Of a DNA stretch of 64,000 bases, positions 20,294 to 31,514 are shown in pieces. Position numbers and translations under genes: made by a program. The notes under the pieces are model-generated. The model had not been told where the DNA came from. It worked only from the letters and a program-made list of their open reading frames with translations, and ran no database searches. The first letter of the stretch is position 1; each line of letters opens with the position of its first letter. This DNA is from an uncultured Parvularculaceae bacterium (GTDB taxonomy: Bacteria > Pseudomonadota > Alphaproteobacteria > Caulobacterales > Parvularculaceae), in contig CAJXLJ010000003.1 in the NCBI GenBank assembly GCA_913055785.1, positions 62,001 through 126,000 on the forward strand, written 5' to 3'.

Positions 20294-20397
20294 CAATTCA
20301 TGGTTGCGCGATTTGAAATCGTCGTCGTTAGATATCGGCCAAGTTGTGTTGAAAAGCTTAGCGATGAAGTGATGGGGGCTTCTCGAGGGAGGGGCTG

Positions 20398-21162
20398 ATG
20401 GCCAAAAATGTAAACAATTCGAATAAAAGGGGTGTTGTCTCCGGCGTGTTGGAGATGGCTCAAGGCGCGGCGTCTGCTGCAACGGTCGGGCAGTGGTTTG
20501 GAATTTCCTCGCCAGCGATTTTGGTGACGGCCGCTGCGTCTTATTATGAATTAACGTATGACGCCGGCTTGAATCTGGGATTGATCGCGGGGGTTGGCGG
20601 GGCGATGGCGCTCTCGAGTTTGGCGGGCGCGGCTGTCATTCGGCTTGGCCAAAAGCGGGTTGTGAGGCATGCGGCTGATGCGGCGCATTTTTCCCTTCTG
20701 AATGACATTGATCGCCCGCTCTTGAGCTTGCGGTTTCCGCCGGAATTGCTTGCCTTGCTTGTCAATGCGGACGGAACGCCGCGTGAAGGCTTTGATTTAA
20801 CGCCCTATCTCACGCAATTTGTCGTGGATGACGTGAACAGTAAATTTCTGGATTTCTACGGCTTCAAACTGGAAACAATCAAAGGCGCAAACCTTCTAAC
20901 AATTCGGCGGTTATTGTCGGAGAGGTTCATCGCTCCTTTGGGCGTGGAGCAAAACGAATATGATGAAACGCTTGGCGAGTGTTTTGACAAGCGCATCATC
21001 AGGTCGTTGATCGGTCAAAAAAACGCGTCCTGCAAGGTCCTGGTCAAGCGCGCCGGCGCCCCGGTGGCCTGCAGCATCAAATACAATGTTTACAACAAGG
21101 ATTATCACGGGCCGCGTTTGCGTATTTGCACAGAGCTTACAAAGCGCTTCTCGCTTGATTGA
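20398..21162 (+). CDS. Orphan membrane-associated protein of unknown function
   Basis: A 254-residue protein I do not recognise. Two hydrophobic stretches lie at about residues 36-50 (SSPAILVTAAASYYEL) and 57-82 (GLNLGLIAGVGGAMALSSLAGAAVI). After them comes a hydrophilic 170-residue domain with a DxVNSKFLDFYGF block and a terminal VYNKDYHGPRLRICTELTKRF. A good ribosome site (GGGAGGGG) precedes the ATG. Codon use appears less GC-rich than in most neighbours. Its place between a glyoxylate-type regulator and isocitrate lyase is the only functional hint. Confidence 0.7.
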   Translation: MAKNVNNSNKRGVVSGVLEMAQGAASAATVGQWFGISSPAILVTAAASYYELTYDAGLNLGLIAGVGGAMALSSLAGAAVIRLGQKRVVRHAADAAHFSLLNDIDRPLLSLRFPPELLALLVNADGTPREGFDLTPYLTQFVVDDVNSKFLDFYGFKLETIKGANLLTIRRLLSERFIAPLGVEQNEYDETLGECFDKRIIRSLIGQKNASCKVLVKRAGAPVACSIKYNVYNKDYHGPRLRICTELTKRFSLD

Positions 21163-21328: not shown

Positions 21329-22921
21329 ATGGCTTACCAAGAAGACATTGACGCGACCCGGCAGCTGATCACCGGTTACGAAGGGACCTGGAGCGGTGTT
21401 GACGCTGAAGCCGTCGCCCGCATGCGCGCGCAGAACCGTTTCCGCACAGGACTCGATATCGCGAAATACTGCGCGAAGATCATGCGCGAGGACATGGCGG
21501 CCTATGACGCCGATCCGGCGAATTACACCCAGTCGCTCGGCTGCTGGCATGGCTTTGTCGGCCAACAGAAGATGATCTCCATCAAGAAGCATTTCGGCTC
21601 GACCAAGCGCCGTTATCTTTATCTTTCAGGCTGGATGGTCGCGGCCCTGCGGTCCGAGTTCGGACCGCTCCCCGACCAGTCTATGCATGAAAAGACCTCT
21701 GTGCCGGGGCTGATTGAGGAGCTTTACACGTTCCTGAAGCAGGCTGATGCGCGCGAACTCGGTCTTCTGTTCCGCGATCTCGATGCGGCGCGCGAAGAAG
21801 GCGATCAGGTCAAAGAGCGGCGTCTCCTCAACCAGATCGACAATTTTGAAACCCATGTCGTGCCGATCATCGCCGATATCGACGCCGGTTTCGGCAACGC
21901 CGAGGCGACTTACCTGCTCGCCAAGAAAATGATCGAAGCCGGCGCCTGCGCTCTGCAGATCGAAAACCAGGTCTCGGATGAAAAGCAGTGCGGCCACCAG
22001 GACGGCAAGGTCACCGTGCCCCATGAAGACTTCCTCGCCAAGATCCGCGCCTGCCGTTACGCCTTCCTCGAGCTCGGCGTCGATGACGGGGTTATCGTCG
22101 CGCGCACGGATTCGCTCGGCGCCGGCCTTACGAAACAGATCGCTTTCAGCGCTGAAGCGGGCGATCTCGGCGACCAGTACAATTCATTCCTCGATTGCGA
22201 TGAGGTATCGCCGGACGAGATCGGCAATGGCGAGGTGTTCATCTCTCGGGGCGGCAAGCTGATGCGCCCCAAACGTCTGCGCTCAAACCTCTTCCAGTTC
22301 CGGAAGGACACCGGCGTTGACCGTGTTGTTCTCGATTGCATAACGTCCCTGCAGCATGGCGCGGACCTGTTGTGGATCGAGACGGAAAAGCCCCATGTGG
22401 AGCAGATCGCCGGCATGGTCGACCGCATTCGCGAAGTCGTGCCCAACGCCAAGCTCGTCTACAACAACTCGCCGTCCTTCAACTGGACGCTGAACTTCCG
22501 CCAGCAGGTGTTCGACGCCTGGAAAGAGGCGGGCAAGGATGTTTCGGCCTACGATCGCGATAAGCTGATGAGCGTCGACTATGACGACACCGAACTGGCG
22601 CTCGAGGCGGACAGAAAAATCCAGTCCTTCCAGCGCGACGCGGCGGCGCGCGCCGGCATCTTCCACCATCTCATCACGCTGCCGACTTATCACACGACGG
22701 CGCTTTCCACCGACAATCTCGCCAAGCGCTACTTCGGCGAGGAGGCGATGCTCGGTTACGTCAAGAACGTGCAGCGCGCGGAAATTCGTCAGGGGATCGC
22801 CTGCGTCAAGCACCAGAACATGGCGGGTTCCGACATCGGCGACGATCACAAGGAGTATTTCGCCGGCGAGGCGGCGCTCAAAGCCGCTGGCGAAGACAAC
22901 ACGATGCACCAGTTCGGGTAA
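21329..22921 (+). CDS. aceA: Isocitrate lyase
   Basis: A 530-residue isocitrate lyase, the first enzyme of the glyoxylate shunt, splitting isocitrate into succinate and glyoxylate. The catalytic loop is present as EKQCGHQDGK with Cys221, preceded by the metal-binding DIDAGFGNAE. The length fits the long subfamily of about 530 residues (as in Pseudomonas), rather than the 430-residue E. coli type. Malate synthase is not in the window. It is a single-gene unit ended by a strong terminator. Confidence 0.96.
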   Translation: MAYQEDIDATRQLITGYEGTWSGVDAEAVARMRAQNRFRTGLDIAKYCAKIMREDMAAYDADPANYTQSLGCWHGFVGQQKMISIKKHFGSTKRRYLYLSGWMVAALRSEFGPLPDQSMHEKTSVPGLIEELYTFLKQADARELGLLFRDLDAAREEGDQVKERRLLNQIDNFETHVVPIIADIDAGFGNAEATYLLAKKMIEAGACALQIENQVSDEKQCGHQDGKVTVPHEDFLAKIRACRYAFLELGVDDGVIVARTDSLGAGLTKQIAFSAEAGDLGDQYNSFLDCDEVSPDEIGNGEVFISRGGKLMRPKRLRSNLFQFRKDTGVDRVVLDCITSLQHGADLLWIETEKPHVEQIAGMVDRIREVVPNAKLVYNNSPSFNWTLNFRQQVFDAWKEAGKDVSAYDRDKLMSVDYDDTELALEADRKIQSFQRDAAARAGIFHHLITLPTYHTTALSTDNLAKRYFGEEAMLGYVKNVQRAEIRQGIACVKHQNMAGSDIGDDHKEYFAGEAALKAAGEDNTMHQFG

Positions 22922-22991
22922 ATCCGTCAGGCCAGCGGCGAGTTTACAACGCTGCATCCTGACCGGGCGTTCTTGCAGGGAGGGAACGCCG

Positions 22992-23030
22992 AACGCCGCC
23001 GCGGGAATGCTCCGCGGCGGCGTTTTATTT
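22992..23030 (+). terminator. Rho-independent terminator of aceA
   Basis: AACGCCGCCGCGG (22992-23004) pairs perfectly over 13 bases with CCGCGGCGGCGTT (23012-23024) across a 7-base loop, followed by a T-rich run. It lies about 70 bases after the aceA stop. Confidence 0.92.
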
Positions 23031-23035
23031 TTATT

Positions 23036-23120
23036 CCGCTCATCCCGGCGAAAGCCGGGATCTCTTCGGACGAGCGTCGACCTTGTGGTTGGAGATTCCG
23101 GCCTGCGCCGGAATGAGCGG
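23036..23120. repeat. REP/BIME-like double-hairpin intergenic element
   Basis: The outer arms CCGCTCAT (23036-23043) and ATGAGCGG (23113-23120) are inverted. Inside are two compact hairpins: CCCGGC-GAAA-GCCGGG (23044-23059) and ATTCCGGC-CTGC-GCCGGAAT (23095-23114). This is the form of repetitive extragenic palindromes found in many copies in proteobacterial genomes. Only one full copy lies in this window. It fills the space between the aceA terminator and the end of the GDPD gene. Confidence 0.7.
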
Positions 23121-23122
23121 GG

Positions 23123-24262
23123 CTAGTTGTTATATTTTGTAAGTTCGCCGCGTGCTTTTGTGGCGTCGTCTGGGAAATTAGGAAAGGCGGCTATGCATCG
23201 CCGCATCTCGACAGCCGTATCCGGAAAATCAGTAAAAACGCCATCTACCCAACTGCCAAAAGCGGCATAGAGCTCTTTCTTGTAGGGCAGCAAAGAGTCG
23301 GCGTCCAAAGAGCCGTCAGCTGACGTGCAATAACGTGAATTTGGTGAGGCAAAGACACCGTTAACTTCTGACACGCTGGCGTCATTGCGAAACGTCCAAG
23401 GATGCACGAACAGCTCGAGATTGTGAGCTGTATGTAAAAGACCTATGTGCAAGGTGGGCGACGGAAACAAAAGTTCTTTCGGCGGCCCTACTCCATCCGC
23501 GTATTCTGCAATCTCCGCCAGCGGAATGTTCGGGCCAGCGCTAGGGGTTTCTTCATAGACGAGCTGCACGAGTTTCGCGTCGGTCTTTCCCTTGAGGTGC
23601 TTTAATATTTCCGGTTCGAAGGACTGGATGAAGACGGGGCCGGCGCTGAAGCCTTCAAGAGCCGCCAGCAATGGCTCTTCGAAATCCATGCCGATGCTCT
23701 GGAAATAGCCGGGATGTTTCGTTTCCGGATAAACGCCGACAGGCCGACCGGCCGCCGCCGCCTTCTCCGTCACCAGCGCCAGCACTTCCTCGAAGGTGGG
23801 GATTTCATAAAGCCCGTCGAATTCTTTCGGGCGGCCCTCTCGAGGCTGCACGGCGCGAAGGGTCTTGATCTCCGCAAGCGTGAAATCCTCGACCCACCAG
23901 TCTTCGCGCCGCGCATCGCCAGCATCCTCGTTGGGTTTCCTGCGTGCGGCGAACTCGGGCCGCCCGGCGATGTCGGTGGTCGTCGAGAGGTAGCGGTCGT
24001 GCCGCGCGACGAGCACGCCGTCCTTGGTGAACACGAGGTCGGGTTCGATAACATCGGCGCCCTGCTCGATGGCGAGTTCATAGGCTTCAAGCGTGTGTTC
24101 GGGGAGATAGCCGCTCGCGCCGCGATGGGCGATAATCAGAGGCGGCTCGCCGTCAAGGGTCCTCCAGAGCGGATCGACCCGCTTTGGCGGATTATTGTCG
24201 TCGCCTGGCGGCGCGCAGGCCGATGCGAAGACGGCCATGGCCGCGATTGCAAAGGATCTCAT
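23123..24262 (-). CDS. Glycerophosphodiester phosphodiesterase lipoprotein
   Basis: A 379-residue GDPD-family protein. The N-terminus is a lipoprotein signal with lipobox ASAC (Cys16). The catalytic TIM-barrel begins IIAHRGASGYLPEHT, followed by the metal-binding GADVIEPDLVFTKDGVLVARHD. These are the HR, ExD and H residues of GlpQ-type enzymes, which hydrolyse glycerophosphodiesters to glycerol-3-phosphate. Start at 24262 gives a proper signal; longer in-frame starts add basic, unrelated sequence. Membrane-anchored periplasmic action is inferred. Confidence 0.9.
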   Translation of the reverse strand: MRSFAIAAMAVFASACAPPGDDNNPPKRVDPLWRTLDGEPPLIIAHRGASGYLPEHTLEAYELAIEQGADVIEPDLVFTKDGVLVARHDRYLSTTTDIAGRPEFAARRKPNEDAGDARREDWWVEDFTLAEIKTLRAVQPREGRPKEFDGLYEIPTFEEVLALVTEKAAAAGRPVGVYPETKHPGYFQSIGMDFEEPLLAALEGFSAGPVFIQSFEPEILKHLKGKTDAKLVQLVYEETPSAGPNIPLAEIAEYADGVGPPKELLFPSPTLHIGLLHTAHNLELFVHPWTFRNDASVSEVNGVFASPNSRYCTSADGSLDADSLLPYKKELYAAFGSWVDGVFTDFPDTAVEMRRCIAAFPNFPDDATKARGELTKYNN

Positions 24263-24330
24263 CGGCGCCCTCCGAAACGTCGCGAGGGCGAAACCTAGCG
24301 CTCTTTCACGCCGCGGTCTGCACGGGCCAT

Positions 24331-24361
24331 AAAAAAACCGCCCGGCGCGTGGCCGGGCGGT
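24331..24361 (-). terminator. Rho-independent terminator of the PEP-CTERM-like gene
   Basis: ACCGCCCGGC (24337-24346) pairs with GCCGGGCGGT (24352-24361) across a 5-base loop. The run of A at 24331-24337 becomes a U-run on the minus strand, directly after the hairpin and 26 bases beyond the stop of the gene at 24387. Confidence 0.9.
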
Positions 24362-24386
24362 CTGTCTCTCGACATGCGAGCAGGTT

Positions 24387-25088
24387 TTACGCTTTTTTGC
24401 GGCGGCGGCTGGCGAAGCCAAGACCCGCAATGCCGGAAAGCAGCAACGGCAAAGCGCCCGGAAGCGGAACTTCCGCAAATTCGAGATCGTCAAGAGCGCC
24501 GGACGCCGAGAACGTCACGATAATCTGGTCGATCAACATCGGCTGACCGAAATAGTCTTCCAGCGTGTCGCCGAGATAATAGGCGAAAGTTTCAGCGAAT
24601 GAGATGTAATTACCATCGCCGATTGCGCTGCCGGCGACAGTGGCGCCGCCGATAAACGCTCCGTTGTTCAACAGTTGTACTTGAACGTTTTCGCCATTGT
24701 CGATGTCGAAAATGTTGATGCCGATGAACTCAACCACGCTTGCGAAATCAAACGTGATGGAGCCGCCGGCGGCTTCATCGTCCGGATCGTTGGAGTCGCC
24801 GTCTTCGGAAATGATCAGCACATGGCCGGGCATGATCCCGTCGGCGCCGCCGGGCGTCGGCGTGTTGAACGGCGCGTCGAGGTCATTGTCGCCGCCCGTA
24901 TAATTGTCTGTGTCGAAGATCATCGCCTGATCGAACGATCCGTTCGAATCCGCGGAAATCGTCAGCAACGGACCGTACTGGGTTGTAATTACCGTTCCGG
25001 TTGACTGGTCTTCAAAATCGATGACAGTCGCAAACGCACTGCCAGTAAGCGCGAGCAAGCCTGCAGCGGTTGAAAGCAAGATACGCAT
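24387..25088 (-). CDS. PEP-CTERM/VPLPA-type sorted exported protein
   Basis: A 233-residue protein with a signal peptide (MRILLSTAAGLLALTGSAFA) and a C-terminal sorting tail: VPLPGALPLLLSGIAGLGF then RRRKKA. That is the motif, membrane helix and basic cluster processed by exosortase/EpsH-type enzymes. The mature domain is acidic and glycine-rich (DGDSNDPDDEAAGG) and probably beta-rich. No exosortase gene lies in the window. The protein probably ends up on the surface or in the matrix, but its role is unknown. Confidence 0.83.
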   Translation of the reverse strand: MRILLSTAAGLLALTGSAFATVIDFEDQSTGTVITTQYGPLLTISADSNGSFDQAMIFDTDNYTGGDNDLDAPFNTPTPGGADGIMPGHVLIISEDGDSNDPDDEAAGGSITFDFASVVEFIGINIFDIDNGENVQVQLLNNGAFIGGATVAGSAIGDGNYISFAETFAYYLGDTLEDYFGQPMLIDQIIVTFSASGALDDLEFAEVPLPGALPLLLSGIAGLGFASRRRKKA

Positions 25089-25220
25089 GAGATCCCCACA
25101 GAAATAACGCAACACCAAGGCCGACAATAAAGATCCCGGCTCGCGGGAGCCAGCTGTATTCCGCACCTGCGGAACACGCATTGCACGAAATTATCCATTT
25201 AAATCAGTGATTAACTATAT

Positions 25221-25931
25221 TCAGCGCCGCCGTTCGCCGCCGCCGCGCTTGCCTCCCGGCGGACCGCGCCGGCGCCGTTCGCCGTCTCCGCGCTGAAATA
25301 ATGGCGGTGTAAACAGCGCCATTTTGATTTCGCCGAACTCGGCGGCGAAGCGGCTGGCGTCTTCAACTTCTTCGTCGGAGAGTGCAGCAGTCATCAGGGC
25401 GAGTGTTTCGGGGTAAACCGAAGGCAAAGCGAAGAGGTCGCGCTCAGAATTATCCTCATAAACAAGCGCCCAGCCCATGGCCTCGACGGGAACCGGTGCG
25501 ACGCCTTCCGCCGCCAGCCTTTCGTCGCCGCTTAAAATGGTCGCCAACTTGTGTTGCGCACGAGCCTGACCCGCATAAGCAGCGCGGCGCAGCCAGAACA
25601 AGGCTTCTTCCCGGAAGAGGGCGGTCTCAATGGTGTTGGCGCCGTCCGCTTCAAGAAGGCAGGCGCCGAGTTCATATTGCGCGACTTCGTAGCCTTCTCC
25701 GAAGGCGGCGATGACGCGATAGGCTGGCGTGGCGGCGGCGCAGCCCTGGCTCGCCTGTAACTTGCGCGCGTGGGAGAGAAACATTCCGGAGCGGCTGAGC
25801 GCCGCATCGGGACCCTGTTGCGCCGGACCGGGCGCTTCCTTTTCGGTAGCGGGTTTGTCCGGATGGGGCGCCGGTATCGGCTCCTGAACCCCTGCAAGCA
25901 GCAGGACGGCGAGGGCGGCGGCAGTTATCAT
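25221..25931 (-). CDS. Exported Sel1/TPR-like repeat protein with Arg-Gly-rich tail
   Basis: A 236-residue protein starting with a signal-like segment (MITAAALAVLLLAGVQ), then a Pro-rich linker. The centre has Sel1-like helical repeats (YEVAQYELGACLLEADG, EALFWLRRAAYAGQARAQHKLATIL). The last 25 residues are highly basic and glycine-rich (RGDGERRRRGPPGGKRGG). Such tails can bind RNA or acidic polymers, but nothing shows which. Start chosen at 25931 because the signal begins there. Function unknown. Confidence 0.68.
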   Translation of the reverse strand: MITAAALAVLLLAGVQEPIPAPHPDKPATEKEAPGPAQQGPDAALSRSGMFLSHARKLQASQGCAAATPAYRVIAAFGEGYEVAQYELGACLLEADGANTIETALFREEALFWLRRAAYAGQARAQHKLATILSGDERLAAEGVAPVPVEAMGWALVYEDNSERDLFALPSVYPETLALMTAALSDEEVEDASRFAAEFGEIKMALFTPPLFQRGDGERRRRGPPGGKRGGGERRR

Positions 25932-26023
25932 GACGGTTTTCTCTCCAGGTGAACTCGACACCCCGCTTGCGCATTAAACGGAGCGGGCGCGCCAATCCGT
26001 CGGAAAATTTTTCGGAAAATCAG

Positions 26024-26161
26024 CGCCGGAAACGTCTTGGCCGGACGTTTCAGAACCGGCGATGGAAAAGAGCACACCCCGCGCTGCATGCGCCCCTCCC
26101 TCTCTGATATGCAGCGCAGCGAAGAACGTGCGGACGGCCGTGGGCCGGCCCGCACGTTTTT
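26024..26161 (+). ncRNA. Candidate structured small RNA with anti-Shine-Dalgarno loop and terminator
   Basis: Three stem-loops follow each other in non-coding DNA. The first: CGCCGG (26024-26029) plus AAACGTC (26030-26036) pairs with GACGTTT (26044-26050) and, past a 5-base bulge, CCGGCG (26056-26061). The second: GCGCTGCAT (26081-26089) pairs with ATGCAGCGC (26109-26117), exposing a 19-base loop holding CCCCTCCCTCTCT. The third: AACGTGCGG (26125-26133) pairs with CCGCACGTT (26150-26158) and runs into T-tract, a Rho-independent terminator with no gene ending upstream. CCUCC loops are known in several alphaproteobacterial sRNAs that block ribosome sites. The 5' end is unknown. It could also be a leader of the gene at 26275. 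The remainder of the 25932-26274 gap shows nothing else. Confidence 0.55.
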
Positions 26162-26274
26162 CGCATAGATTTCGGGCGGTTGGGCGCGCCTGTGGAAATT
26201 CGTAAAATCTTCTTGGGGCTCCAGCTTGCCGCCGGATTAATCCTGATCTAGGTTTCTCCACAGGGGTTGGGGTA

Positions 26275-27573
26275 GTGGGAAACGCATTGTTTAGCCGGAT
26301 TTTGTATTGGTCCGCGGGGATTGGCGCTGTCGTCACCAGTCTTGCGGTGGTCGCCGCAGCGCAGACAGCCACAGCGCCGTCAATCGCCGACCGACTCAAG
26401 GAAAAAGTTCCCCAGTTCGATCTCTCCGCGCTCGCGCCAAAGCCGACTAATCGCACGATTGATTTTGAAAATCTCGACGGGCGGCTCACCAAGCAATATG
26501 CAGAAGAATACGGCGTCTCGTTCGGACGCGGCGTAAGCGTTCACATTTGCTCCGGGTCTTCGTTCACGGCGGCGGCGGTCGTCGATCAAACCTGTCCCTA
26601 TCAGCAGGCGGCGAACGGCAGCCAACGGGCGGCGTATTTCGATGCGCGCTCGAACTCTTTCATGGAAATCGATTTCGCCAGGCCGGTTTCGTATGCCGAT
26701 ATAAAGATCAACCCCACCGGCGGCGCGCCGGATTCTGAATTCACAGTTGAAGTTAAAGGTTTTGACTCCAACGGGAATGAGATTGGGGCGAATAGGCGGA
26801 CTTTTAACTGGCTTCAGGATGCCTTCACCTGGCCGAACAGAGTCGATCTTGAAACCGACAAGGGCCGCGTTTCGCGCATGACGGTGCGGCTGCTCAATGC
26901 GAGAGGCGAGCCGACACGGTTTCTGTTCGACGATCTTTCCTTTGTTTATGCGCCTGACCTGAGCGACACGCCGGTTCTTGAAGCGCTCGCCGAGCGTCGT
27001 GGACCGCCGCCCCTGCCGGGGGAGATGCGCGAGACGATGACGGAGATCAGGGCTGATGCGGCGACGAAACTGCGGCGCTACAAGGTTGCGAGACAAATGC
27101 GCTCGCCGATTGACTGGGATGCGGTTGACGCGACGCTCGGCAAACAAAATGATCGCAATATGCGCCCCGGCGCCGCGCGGATGGTCAATCGCGCCCGCGA
27201 TCGCGCCAAAATGCCAATGCTGCTGCCGGCGAACGCCGATGACGGGACGCTGAGCGTAGTCGGCGGCGAGGATTCCTACCACGCGGATTTTAAAATGGGC
27301 GGCCGCGCCTATTCGATCTACGGCACCAGGGTCCTCACCATGATGGAGCCCGCCAAAGGCGCGCCGAAACCGGAATTCAATGTCATTGAGCAGGAAACCG
27401 AATACGCGCTGGTGGTGAGCTTCTCGCTGTTTGGCGCATCCTTTACGGTGACGCGCTACTGCCTCAATGACAGCGCCGAGGAAGACCCCACCTGTTACGA
27501 CCGCGACGCCATGGGCGGAATGATGCGCGATATCGTCGTCGATGTCGGCGAAGCAGGGATGCAGCGGCCATGA
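26275..27573 (+). CDS. Exported protein of unknown function (GTG start)
   Basis: A 432-residue protein. The GTG at 26275 yields a signal-like N-terminus (LYWSAGIGAVVTSLAVVAAAQTA). Residues about 60-230 look like a beta-sandwich that may bind carbohydrate: TIDFENLDGRLTKQY, FMEIDFARPVSYADIKI, RFLFDDLSFVY. The C-terminal 200 residues are a separate domain with paired cysteines (CLNDSAEEDPTC). I recognise no catalytic motif. It overlaps the M23 peptidase gene by four bases, so the two probably act in the same place. Confidence 0.7.
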   Translation: MGNALFSRILYWSAGIGAVVTSLAVVAAAQTATAPSIADRLKEKVPQFDLSALAPKPTNRTIDFENLDGRLTKQYAEEYGVSFGRGVSVHICSGSSFTAAAVVDQTCPYQQAANGSQRAAYFDARSNSFMEIDFARPVSYADIKINPTGGAPDSEFTVEVKGFDSNGNEIGANRRTFNWLQDAFTWPNRVDLETDKGRVSRMTVRLLNARGEPTRFLFDDLSFVYAPDLSDTPVLEALAERRGPPPLPGEMRETMTEIRADAATKLRRYKVARQMRSPIDWDAVDATLGKQNDRNMRPGAARMVNRARDRAKMPMLLPANADDGTLSVVGGEDSYHADFKMGGRAYSIYGTRVLTMMEPAKGAPKPEFNVIEQETEYALVVSFSLFGASFTVTRYCLNDSAEEDPTCYDRDAMGGMMRDIVVDVGEAGMQRP

Positions 27574-28508
27574 CGTTTCGCGCGCTTCTCGAGAATCTCA
27601 TCAAACTGCTGGCCGTGTCGGCGCTCGCTGTAAGCGTTGTCGCTTGCGGCGGCGATGGCGGTTCTTCGACCCCGCCGGATGACGATACGCCGCCGGCGGA
27701 TGGCGATGACGACGTTCCACCCCCTGTTGAGGATGACGACGAGATTGAATTCGAGCATGGCGCGCCTGGCGAGTTATTGTTGCTCGAGCCGGAAGGCAAT
27801 CTCGGTTCGGCGCGGTTCAACGGCGTTTTCGGCGTCACCGACGATTCCGTCGTCGCGCCGGGGATACGTTTTCCACTCGAGACCGGTCCGGCTTTTCTGA
27901 ACTCGCAAATCTTCGGCTATGGCGGCGGCGGTTACGACTATGGCGGCGGCGAGGTCTATGAGAACCCGAATGTCGGTCAGGAAAACGATGCGCGCAATTT
28001 CGAGTATCCCTGGTACGACAATTTCTGCGAAGTGCGCAGCCATACGCTCGGCATGTGTGAGGCCGGGGTCGGCCATCAGGGGCAGGATATCCGCCCGGCG
28101 ACCTGTGAGAACGGCGCCTTTTTCGCGGTGGCGCCGGAAGACGGCTATGTGCGTCGCGTTGGCGAAACCCACTTGCTTGAGATCTATGGCGACAGCGGCC
28201 TCGTCTACAAATATCTGCATCTCGACCGGCCGCTGGAGCCGGGGATCGAGCTCAATGAGCGTGTGACTCGCGGCCAGCGGCTGGGCAAGATTTCCAACAA
28301 GACCGGCGCGACGTCGCGTTCGACCACGGTCCATCTTCATTTCGAAATCTGGCACGGCACCGCCTCGGGCGGCGTCAATACCGGCGCCGGACCGCTGCCG
28401 CCTTACACCAGCCTTGTCGAGGCCTATCTGGATCTTATCGAAGAGCACCCAGACCAGTTCGATCCGGTGCCGCCGCCTTCCGACGTGCAGGAATGCCGCG
28501 AGCCTTGA
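27570..28508 (+). CDS. M23 family metallopeptidase lipoprotein
   Basis: A 312-residue lipoprotein: lipobox VVAC at about residues 25-28, then an acidic, proline-rich linker of roughly 40 residues that could span the periplasm. The peptidase domain has HQGQDIRP (first zinc ligands H and D) and HLHFEIWHG (HxH), the LytM/M23 signature, with YKYLHLDRP between. M23 enzymes cut peptidoglycan cross-bridges or regulate amidases. All visible zinc ligands are present, so it may be active. Start overlaps the upstream gene (ATGA). Confidence 0.87.
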   Translation: MTFRALLENLIKLLAVSALAVSVVACGGDGGSSTPPDDDTPPADGDDDVPPPVEDDDEIEFEHGAPGELLLLEPEGNLGSARFNGVFGVTDDSVVAPGIRFPLETGPAFLNSQIFGYGGGGYDYGGGEVYENPNVGQENDARNFEYPWYDNFCEVRSHTLGMCEAGVGHQGQDIRPATCENGAFFAVAPEDGYVRRVGETHLLEIYGDSGLVYKYLHLDRPLEPGIELNERVTRGQRLGKISNKTGATSRSTTVHLHFEIWHGTASGGVNTGAGPLPPYTSLVEAYLDLIEEHPDQFDPVPPPSDVQECREP

Positions 28509-28585
28509 GGCTTTCACCCTTCCGGGCGATATGAATTCCAGACAACAGGCCTCAGTCTCGGCTGGCGCAATGCTGGAGGTAAATC

Positions 28586-29182
28586 ATGTCCGAAGCCCAG
28601 AAGCTCGAAATGGAGCTCTATGAGAAGGCCCTGAAGCTCGCCGCCCTGAGGCGCGCCGATGCCCCCGTCGAAGTGCCGGATTACGAATTTCAGACCCTCA
28701 ATGGAACGACGAGCCTCTCCGCGCTGTTCGCCGGCCGCGAGCGGCTTCTCGCGATCCACAATATGGGGCAGGGCTGCCGTTACTGCACGCTCTGGGCGGA
28801 CGGGATCAATGGCATCCTATCCCACCTTGAAGACGCGATGGCGGTGGTGCTGGTGTCGAAGGATGCGCCCGCGCTGCAGCGGCGCATGGCCCAGGACCGC
28901 GGCTGGCGGTTCCGTTTCGCTTCCCATGGAGGCGGGAAATACATGACGGAGCAAAATGTCATGGAAGGCGAAGGGAATTACCCCGGCGCGGTCATTTATG
29001 AGATGAAAGACGGAAAGATTTTCCGGCGCGGCTCCGCGCCCTTCGGGCCGGGCGATCTCTATTCGCCGATGTGGCATTTCCTTTCTCTCGCCGGTCTTGA
29101 GGAAAAGGACTGGACGCCGCAATTCCATTACTGGAGCCGCCCGCAAAAGCTGGAAGACGGCGGCGAGAATGTCCGGGACTGA
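28586..29182 (+). CDS. DUF899 family thioredoxin-like protein
   Basis: A 198-residue protein of the DUF899 family. It has a thioredoxin-like fold with a single CxxC, QGCRYCTLWADG (about residues 60-71), and WHFLSLAGLEEKDWTPQFHYW near the end. The reaction is unknown. The ribosome site TGGAGGT is well placed before the ATG. The 3' end overlaps yidD by 14 bases. Confidence 0.82.
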   Translation: MSEAQKLEMELYEKALKLAALRRADAPVEVPDYEFQTLNGTTSLSALFAGRERLLAIHNMGQGCRYCTLWADGINGILSHLEDAMAVVLVSKDAPALQRRMAQDRGWRFRFASHGGGKYMTEQNVMEGEGNYPGAVIYEMKDGKIFRRGSAPFGPGDLYSPMWHFLSLAGLEEKDWTPQFHYWSRPQKLEDGGENVRD

Positions 29183-29528
29183 CAAACGGCGCAGCGTTGT
29201 CGCCGGTGCCGCTCTCGGGCTTTTGTGGCTTTACAAGCGAACGCTCTCGCCGCTGTTTTATTTTCTCGGCGCAAGGTGTCGTCATACGCCGACCTGTTCG
29301 GAATACGCTGCGGAAGCGTTTCGCATTCATCATCCATGGCGGGCTTTCTGGCTTTCGCTTTCGCGGCTATCGCGCTGCCATCCTTGGGGTAGTCACGGAT
29401 TTGATCCGGTTCCGGAGGAAACGCCGTCAGCAGGATGGCGCTTCTGGCGGCTCGGCGACTGGGCGTGGACGGAGCGCTGCGGCGAAACCAAAACAGGGCG
29501 GCTCTCGCCGCCCTGTCAGGAGTCGTAA
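29169..29528 (+). CDS. yidD: YidD, membrane protein insertion efficiency factor
   Basis: A 119-residue YidD. It has the family block LLWLYKRTLSPLFYFLGARCRHTPTCSEYA and then HHPWRAFWLSLSRLSRCHPWGSHGFDPVP. YidD assists YidC in membrane protein insertion and usually sits beside rpmH-rnpA-yidC; here it is detached from that cluster, as is common in alphaproteobacteria. The protein is longer at the C-terminus than the usual 70-90 residues. Its last codons overlap a hairpin serving as the slipin terminator. Confidence 0.92.
   Translation: MSGTDKRRSVVAGAALGLLWLYKRTLSPLFYFLGARCRHTPTCSEYAAEAFRIHHPWRAFWLSLSRLSRCHPWGSHGFDPVPEETPSAGWRFWRLGDWAWTERCGETKTGRLSPPCQES
29487..29516 (-). terminator. Terminator-like hairpin for the slipin gene, inside the yidD 3' end
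   Basis: ACAGGGCGGC (29493-29502) pairs perfectly with GCCGCCCTGT (29507-29516) around a TCTC loop. On the minus strand the hairpin is followed by TTTGGTTT, a modest U-run. It lies 25 bases beyond the slipin stop. Confidence 0.6.
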
Positions 29529-29540
29529 TCCGCGATTTCC

Positions 29541-30698
29541 TTACGGTTTTGGCCGCAAGGAAACCAGACGGTCGACAATCGCATTCAGGCCTTCGCCCGA
29601 AGAAGCGTGTACGTCGATCCGGCCGATACGGTCCGTGACGCGTTCCAGCGCTTCGAGTTCTTTCAAACGCAGAAGCGTCGGGTTGTCTTCCATCAATCGT
29701 GCGGTGTTCAGAAGCGACCGCGTAGCAGCCGTTTCCTCACGCCGGCGGATCAGGTTCGCCTGAGCGGTTTTTTCCGCTTCGACGACCCGGTTGATTAGCT
29801 CGCGCATGTCGCCCGGAAGAATGACGTCTTTGACGCCAAGCTCCGTGACGGCGACGCCGATGTCGCCGATCTCGCGCCGGACATGGGCGACGATCTGCTC
29901 GTCGACCGTTTCTCGGTCCGAGAGGACTTCATCAAGCGTGCGTCCGCCGATCGCTTCCCGAACCGCGAACTGCACGAGCTTGTAAACATGGCTCATGTAG
30001 TCCGGGGTCGAAAGCGCCGCTTTCGGTGCGTCCGTCACCTGGACGAACGACGTCAACGTTACTCGCAGAGAGACCTTGTCTTTCGTCAGGATCTCCTGCG
30101 CCGTCACTTCCAGCGGGAGCGGCCGGGTGTCGAGCATTTTGGCCGACACTTTGCGGCCGATCTGCCAGTAGCCGTAACGGCCTGGCGCGAGCGTTTCGAC
30201 AAGCTCGCCATCGAAAAAGACGAGACCCGTTTGCGCTTCGGGGACAGTAACGATCCCGATCGTCGGCCCAGCCGCTGAAGAAGCGCCTTCGCCCATCGCC
30301 ATGGCTTTTTCGTAGGCGACAAGCTCGGCTTTCGTCAGCCGCGGATTGTCGAGCGCGTTGATGCGCGTGACCGTCACGTCTTGGAGCACTTTCCAGACAT
30401 GCGCCGTCAGTCCCGGACGCACAATCGCCGAGGCCCGGCCATCAAACGAGATGACCGCAACTTCCCCTTCGCCGACGCGCACCGTATCAAAGTACCGTGA
30501 CGCCAGTTCCGGGTGGCGCTTTTCGATGATCTCCGCCCAAGGCGACAGGAACAAGCCCTGCGCTTTGAATGTCTCGACGCTCAATCGTCCGAGTGCGTCG
30601 AAATAGACGTGCCGGCCCGGTTCGAGCACGGCGATCATGCGGCCATCCTTGATGAGGAGGCCGCGTTGGTTTTCAGCGATTACGAATGTTTTAAGCAT
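29541..30698 (-). CDS. Slipin family SPFH/band 7 protein
   Basis: A 385-residue slipin-like protein. The SPFH domain spans about residues 170-320, with ALSTPDYMSHVYKLVQFAVREAIG, and VTELGVKDVILPGDMRELINRVVEAEK typical of prokaryotic slipins. There is no obvious N-terminal membrane helix. The first 150 residues form an extra domain beginning MLKTFVIAENQRGLLIKDG. A strong ribosome site (GGAGG) lies before the ATG. Slipins organise membrane microdomains; the usual NfeD partner is not adjacent. Confidence 0.85.
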   Translation of the reverse strand: MLKTFVIAENQRGLLIKDGRMIAVLEPGRHVYFDALGRLSVETFKAQGLFLSPWAEIIEKRHPELASRYFDTVRVGEGEVAVISFDGRASAIVRPGLTAHVWKVLQDVTVTRINALDNPRLTKAELVAYEKAMAMGEGASSAAGPTIGIVTVPEAQTGLVFFDGELVETLAPGRYGYWQIGRKVSAKMLDTRPLPLEVTAQEILTKDKVSLRVTLTSFVQVTDAPKAALSTPDYMSHVYKLVQFAVREAIGGRTLDEVLSDRETVDEQIVAHVRREIGDIGVAVTELGVKDVILPGDMRELINRVVEAEKTAQANLIRRREETAATRSLLNTARLMEDNPTLLRLKELEALERVTDRIGRIDVHASSGEGLNAIVDRLVSLRPKP

Positions 30699-31368: not shown

Positions 31369-31442
31369 GCTTTGGTGCGGGAATCGAACCCGCGACTCCT
31401 ACGTTAACAGCGTAGTGCTCTACCCAACTGAGCTAACCAGTG
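31369..31442 (-). tRNA. tRNA-Asn(GTT)-like gene, probably degenerate
   Basis: The minus strand folds as a cloverleaf body of normal spacing: D stem GCTC/GAGC with loop AGTTGGGTA, anticodon stem CTACG/CGTAG with loop CTGTTAA (anticodon GTT, Asn), variable GAGTC, and T arm GCGGG-TTCGATT-CCCGC. The acceptor arms CACTGGT and ACCAAAG mispair at positions 2-71 and 3-70, and no CCA follows the discriminator. It may be a pseudogene or may need editing. Confidence 0.5.
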
Positions 31443-31514
31443 TGGCTTCTATGAAGGACTCGAACCTTCGACCTTCCGGCATCGCCGGACGCTCTTCCGC
31501 TGAGCTAATAGACC
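31443..31514 (-). pseudogene. Second tRNA-like sequence abutting the tRNA-Asn-like gene
   Basis: The minus strand has TAGCTC-AGCGGAA-GAGC (D arm) and GAAGG-TTCGAGT-CCTTC (T arm), then ATAGAAG and CCA-like bases ending exactly where the next tRNA-like unit begins. The anticodon arm TCCGG/CCGGA leaves a loop of only 5 bases, or a GAT anticodon without U33, and the region is one or two bases short. The first two acceptor pairs do not match. It is most likely a decayed tRNA gene. Confidence 0.4.

Follow-up and report, generated by a model that had tools for sequence, protein, structure and literature searches.

GsrN of Caulobacter, a small RNA (sRNA) of the EcfG regulon, pairs through a C-rich loop with the G-rich leader of katG and, according to the available parts of its description, lies near general stress genes in most relatives, with BLASTn homologues limited to the Caulobacteraceae (PMC5869019). 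The Alpha-r8 family (SisA-D of Caulobacter; SisA/MmgR) is defined, in the accessible portion of the source, by a single-stranded 10-mer, UUUCCUCCCU (PMC12559287), and CcsR1-4 of Rhodobacter are linked, in the sections available, to a host gene, ccaF1, that encodes a DUF1127 RNA-binding protein, and to RNase E processing (PMC8625941). In Caulobacter vibrioides, moreover, the EF-hand gene cabp lies beside the ECF gene sigV, and its promoter, determined by 5' RACE, consists of GGAAA, a 13-nt spacer and CGTTCA; a reporter depends on SigV, direct SigV binding is unproven according to the authors, and SigT is also linked to the promoter, as far as the available text goes (PMC13171946).

We describe here a predicted sRNA of about 105 nt (26057..26161, plus strand) in a window of 64,000 nucleotides, the whole stretch of DNA that was analysed, from an uncultured marine alphaproteobacterium of the Parvularculaceae whose genus includes Marinicaulis flavus and whose genome (G000) comprises 3.26 Mb over 85 contigs. 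The RNA matches no Rfam family; other sRNAs that depend on an ECF factor and have a C-rich loop are already known. In Rfam 15 the best match at the RNA in the window was ncS035, with 18.8 bits against a cut-off of 79, and no family passed there or at the RNA in 17 relatives, where BTH_s1 (34.9 of 74) and anti-hemB (25 of 49.5) overlapped it below cut-off in loci L007 and L006. Across the whole window, only two adjacent tRNA genes (31373-31439 and 31448-31512, minus strand) exceed an Rfam cut-off.

Like GsrN, the RNA would depend on an ECF sigma factor and exposes a C-rich loop (PMC5869019, available parts), a feature common to several unrelated sRNAs. With the Alpha-r8 RNAs, as described in the accessible text, it shares a C-rich anti-Shine-Dalgarno stretch ahead of the terminator (PMC12559287). 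It differs from them in its unrelated promoter and in that UUUCCUCCCU is absent from 26024-26161 even with one mismatch (the window as a whole has five such matches, for 3.04 expected, all outside this segment); moreover, the N-formylglutamate amidohydrolase gene that adjoins Alpha-r8 in most species is not among the nine neighbouring proteins at 21329-30698. CcsR1-4, so far as the consulted sections describe them, are stress RNAs that originate in the 3' UTR of an mRNA for a small protein, and the RNA seems to have such an origin in relatives that carry a gene here called C (PMC8625941), yet they are four RNAs, whereas that of the window stands alone with no small-protein gene upstream. The likeness to MicA, RybB and MicL of E. 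coli lies in the proposal of an RNA arm of an ECF regulon, theirs being an envelope-stress regulon in the part of the source available (PMC8103513); these RpoE-dependent RNAs belong to another sigma family, and the likeness is meant as one of regulatory role. The cabp-sigV circuit is similar in its neighbouring EF-hand and ECF sigma genes and in its promoter spacing, and different in that its available text mentions no sRNA and places a separate sigV promoter inside cabp (PMC13171946). A literature search that covered few subscription papers found no sRNA in a SigV-type regulon, and no paper in the literature searched joined Marinicaulis with a small RNA.

A predicted intergenic RNA between divergent genes

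The setting is intergenic, with gene A on the minus strand to the left of the RNA and gene B on the plus strand to its right. Gene A (25221..25961), with a more likely start at an ATG at about 25931, encodes a small exported protein, to which 35 of the 100 relatives searched have a match, and gene B (26275..27573), a neighbour outside the RNA unit, encodes an exported protein with matches in 42 of 100; neither belongs to a Pfam or NCBIfam family at E 0.001. Beyond gene A, the minus strand encodes at 24390-25181 a protein with a PEP-CTERM-like tail, which scored 20.6 bits, just below the Pfam cut-off of 20.7.

The first-pass annotation of this stretch had proposed an intergenic RNA of about 140 nt with three hairpins, a CCUCC-type loop and an orphan terminator. 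Three stem-loops are indeed present: 26024-26161 folds with a minimum free energy of -62.5 kcal/mol against a shuffle mean of -50.8 (z -3.14; 0 of 200 shuffles as good). Hairpin 2 (26081..26117, plus strand), identified by its fold, by a covariance model match at 26077-26162 and by pair counts, has the arms GCGCTGCAT (26081-26089) and ATGCAGCGC (26109-26117), which enclose the C-rich loop GCGCCCCTCCCTCTCTGAT (26090-26108), and is followed by an intrinsic terminator (26122..26161, plus strand) recognised by its stem fold and pair counts, with the T tract TTTTT at 26157-26161. With up to one mismatch allowed, the window has a single copy of CGCCCCTCCCTCT, against 0.13 expected. The proposal of a C-rich loop and of a terminator of the RNA's own is supported by both the fold and the covariance models.

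Hairpin 1 (26024-26061) is better explained as promoter DNA than as part of the RNA. It is overlapped by a predicted SigV-type promoter, CGCCGGA-N15-CGTTTCA (26024..26052, plus strand), in which CGCCGGA (26024-26030) departs from the -35 motif by one mismatch (6 of 7), CGTT is intact, and GGAAA (26028-26032) is separated by 13 nt from CGTTTC (26046-26051); the spacing from GGAAN to CGTT is 13-14 nt in relatives. The same motif, inverted, forms the predicted SigV-type promoter of gene A, CGACGGA-N15-CGTTTAA (25974..26002, minus strand). Counted over 30 regions from relatives, the first 330 nt of each, requiring 6 or 7 of 7 positions in the first box and accepting CGTA as well on the minus strand, the motif was found on the plus strand in 18 regions (11 of 1500 shuffles) and on the minus strand in 27 (16 of 1500); all 13 RNA-bearing genomes have the plus-strand copy. 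This two-box motif is what relatives conserve at the site of hairpin 1, and no hairpin was seen there in the relatives compared by eye. A scan for sigma-70 promoters found none ahead of the RNA. Hairpin 1 contains both boxes, -35 and -10, of this conserved promoter of ECF type, and the transcript is therefore probably about 105 nt long instead of 140, with a start placed from the -10 box.

The first-pass annotation had also raised the alternative of a leader that attenuates the exported protein's gene at 26275 (gene B), about 114 nt upstream of which the terminator lies, on the same strand. A separate conserved block, CTTGCCG (26226..26258, plus strand), a probable promoter of gene B in its own right, lies between the two: CTTGC[CA][GA] was found there at 12 of 16 orthologue loci, with a match in L012 that looks coding, against 1 of 16 for a control stretch. 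Together with the arrangement in G047, where the RNA, as judged by eye, lies next to a different gene and has no gene B beside it, this block rules against attenuation, to which we give hardly any credence.

Structure and conservation in relatives

The RNA is not conserved at the level that BLASTN detects, the one match in 199 relatives being 42 nt long and inside a fliF-like coding frame of G130; genes A and B were therefore sought in 100 relatives each and the adjoining stretches read. By position, an RNA consisting of a C-rich-loop stem followed by a strong hairpin was recognised in 12 other genomes, ten of the same genus (G001, G011, G013, G014, G015, G016, G017, G020, G021 and G023) and two, G047 and G053, from another genus of the family. 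These 13 sequences, the window's included, were picked by eye; folded individually, the 12 from relatives all give the stem with the C-rich loop and the strong hairpin, and so, in similar form, does a segment of G058. The T tract is not clear in G017 and G053. The loop contains GCGCCCCUCCCUCUCUGAU in the window and GCGCCCCUU or CGCCCCUCCC in several relatives, and its C-rich character is kept although loop lengths vary. An additional pairing segment is present in the loop of G013, and in G002 (L067 1905-2056) the loop seems to contain an inserted nested hairpin.

An ATG at 26062 opens a frame that can be read as a very small mRNA. It would have almost no leader, the frame crosses the terminator, and relatives, with loops of 19 to 40 nt, do not keep it, which makes such a message extremely improbable.

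Among 30 regions on the gene A side, 17 have no assigned RNA, five of which (G004, G008, G022, G027 and G058) have the promoter, followed by structured sequence rich in C. A descriptor whose thresholds were fixed after examples had been viewed, which favours the RNA reading, matched 9 of the 30 regions in plus orientation, of which 8 at the RNA and that of G022 elsewhere, none in minus orientation and 6 of 600 shuffles. Three MAFFT alignments (A1, A2, A4) did not bring the structures into register and were excluded from the covariance models. A first model, R1, from three relatives was weak (54 matches at E 10, mostly chance) and served to put five relatives in register for a second, R2, from which the window was left out. 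Searched against 36 loci (130.5 kb), R2 gave 35 matches at E 1, five of them its training sequences, and the best of the others was the window itself, at 26077-26162 (E 8.8e-5 in 130.5 kb). Nine of these 30 non-training matches fall at the RNA (window, G020, G015, G002, G001, G023, G053, G047, G017), a tenth (G008) falls in the right stretch, and the remaining ones look like chance. The RNA of G002, which lies behind gene C at 2.6 kb from gene A, was found in this way and is outside the 13.

Alignment A8, of eight sequences including the window, was made to fit the structure, a choice in the structure's favour: 92.7% of cells are paired, against at most 51.5% in slid registers, 13 of 21 pairs are changed on both sides, and 0 of 500 shuffles did as well on any of the five measures. 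In helix 1, the C-rich stem, nine pairs divide into four invariant, two with one-sided and three with two-sided changes, and 94.4% of cells are paired; in helix 2, the terminator, ten of 12 pairs vary on both sides. Position and structure are thus conserved for hairpin 2 and the terminator, and of the three stems in which the first-pass annotation had proposed compensating changes as a check, these two show them.

A third model, R3, matched in 21 of 28 genomes of the genus at E 1. The syntenic RNA was its best genome-wide match in the eight training genomes and in the untrained G023 (E 0.0035) and G001 (E 0.020); G017 gave no match at E 1. The best matches in G010 (E 0.014) and G009 (E 0.016) are non-syntenic and as strong as that of G001, so that R3 alone is not specific at this level. 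With stricter filters over 199 genomes, nine passed E 0.001, namely seven training genomes, G014 being the one missed, and G123 and G139, both from another family.

The matches in G123 and G139 (L121 1432-1584, plus strand, and L122 1501-1584, minus strand) are only suggestive, at E 1.1e-4 and 3.7e-4 with 199 genomes searched. Both RNAs have C-rich loops and a terminator, lie between EF-hand-like frames (identified by eye) and are preceded by a further conserved stretch, CGCCTCCCGCG. One of only four genome-wide promoter motifs of G123 ends 39 nt before its RNA match; no SigV-type motif was found ahead of that in G139.

Gene C and the candidate sigma factor

Eight relatives have the RNA immediately behind gene C, which encodes a small, exported, lipoprotein-like product marked by a lipobox-like signal and by DRRESRRDER repeats, and which is absent at the window locus. 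There the plus strand just upstream of 26024 holds only short frames antisense to gene A, so that the terminator is an orphan in the window, as first described, and is not one in relatives with gene C. The stop of gene C lies 9-18 nt before the RNA core (the C-rich stem) in G011, G013, G014, G015, G016, G017 and G023; in G020 (L073) the frame is broken by a stop, with promoter and RNA kept. The distance from motif to RNA core is 441-500 nt in the eight genomes with gene C and 25-73 nt in the five without it between promoter and C-rich hairpin (the window, G021, G001, G047 and G053; in the last two it was looked for only between gene A and the RNA). A search for gene C gave some match in 23 of 60 relatives and none in G001 or G021; in G000 it turned up only a partial match (53%), located on a different contig. 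In G029, which belongs to another genus, gene C stands beside gene A, with no recognised RNA and no plus-strand motif. Gene C may have been lost in the window lineage, not gained in the others.

This arrangement could mean that hairpin and terminator are a functionless relic, the mere transcription end of a missing gene C, since they directly follow that gene in eight relatives and a strong terminator alone could yield much covariation, ten of the 13 doubly changed pairs being in the terminator helix. We regard a relic as unlikely. Both the C-rich hairpin and the promoter persist, 25-73 nt apart, in the five genomes that have no gene C between them; helix 1 has its own three two-sided changes with 94.4% of cells paired; and loops of varying length are C-rich throughout. 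Promoter and RNA are found as a pair whether or not the coding part is there, an argument that the RNA matters in its own right.

A candidate for the sigma factor is encoded on another contig of G000 (G000:C25:25765-26319), where an ECF sigma gene of NF004113 type (NF004113/PRK05602; 228.2 bits, cut-off 208) lies behind an EF-hand gene with the promoter motif. The pattern CGACGGAN{15,16}CGTTNNA occurs four times in G000 (once for a reversed control): at gene A, at the EF-hand gene followed by the ECF sigma gene, at an efflux-adaptor-like gene and inside a coding frame. Of 30 sigma loci of NF004113 type, all but L160 carry the exact motif, CGACGGA-N15/16-CGT[TA], no more than 1500 nt upstream of the sigma gene (29 of 30), with none antisense and 2 in 600 shuffles. 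A crude pattern found an EF-hand frame at 14 of these 30 loci, and misses real ones (G000, G017, G021); the motif lies 7-37 nt before such a frame in five of eight other genomes searched (G004, G017, G021, G022 and G139) and likewise, from the sigma loci, in G020. SigV-type motifs stand before a MacA-like efflux adaptor gene (G000:C14:3943-3971, L124) and a TolC-like outer-membrane gene (G016:C46:54438, L131), both named by eye; these genes are possible further members of the regulon.

The EcfG promoter consensus is GGAAC-N16/17-CGTT, a longer spacer than the 13 nt of the window or the 13-14 nt between GGAAN and CGTT across its relatives. An RNA of the EcfG/PhyR general stress response resembling GsrN thus fits the promoter poorly, the motif instead marking the NF004113-type loci, and none of nine scanned neighbours is a general-stress regulator; even with the C-rich 5' loop and ECF-type promoter that GsrN too has, in the available description (PMC5869019), we consider this quite improbable. 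The NF004113-type factor may correspond to SigV of Caulobacter (CCNA_02837), an equation drawn from family, neighbouring gene and promoter. NF004113 matched in 10 of 14 controls, C. vibrioides among them, one (not specified which) being over the cut-off, and a primer search for the Caulobacter cabp locus found it in 0 of 249 f3 genomes.

A proposed RNA arm

Our preferred reading, to which we assign a probability of roughly 70%, is a trans-acting sRNA at about 26057-26161 whose synthesis would depend on a SigV-type sigma factor and whose C-rich loop would regulate translation. Stress would free the ECF factor, and this SigV-type (NF004113) protein would read leftward into gene A and rightward into the RNA, which would end at its own terminator. 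The loop may then pair with G-rich ribosome-binding regions, by analogy with GsrN, SisA and the RpoE-dependent sRNAs, and so alter translation, most likely by repression, through which the sigma factor would gain an RNA arm. In relatives with gene C the RNA would be the 3' UTR of the gene C mRNA, made from the same promoter; in the window, where gene C is missing, promoter and RNA would have been joined.

The search for targets yielded none. Gene B was considered as one and rejected: its start ranks fourth among 54 window genes by duplex energy, and in seven genomes its pairing with the cognate RNA was no better than that of shuffled start regions, of which 150, 74, 240, 110, 57, 202 and 212 of 300 scored as low. 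Separately, the best duplex energy among the 54 genes belongs to that at 20398-21162, whose ribosome site (GGGAGGGGC, within 20340-20410) has 11 nt complementary to the loop.

A broader view, in which the RNA is the hitherto undescribed non-coding arm of an EF-hand-linked SigV-type stress regulon of this order, an arm that evolves between the 3' UTR of a lipoprotein-like mRNA and a stand-alone form joined to the same promoter and that includes the RNAs of G123 and G139, we offer tentatively, at somewhat under even odds. As a case, the locus shows that promoter DNA can pass for the 5' hairpin of a predicted sRNA, and the comparison of genomes with and without gene C is a natural experiment in which 3' UTR RNAs and independent sRNA genes become directly testable against one another. 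If the proposal is true, an ECF sigma factor that has hardly been studied, and that is associated with EF-hand calcium-binding proteins, gains a post-transcriptional arm, which would parallel MicA and RybB for RpoE and GsrN for EcfG.
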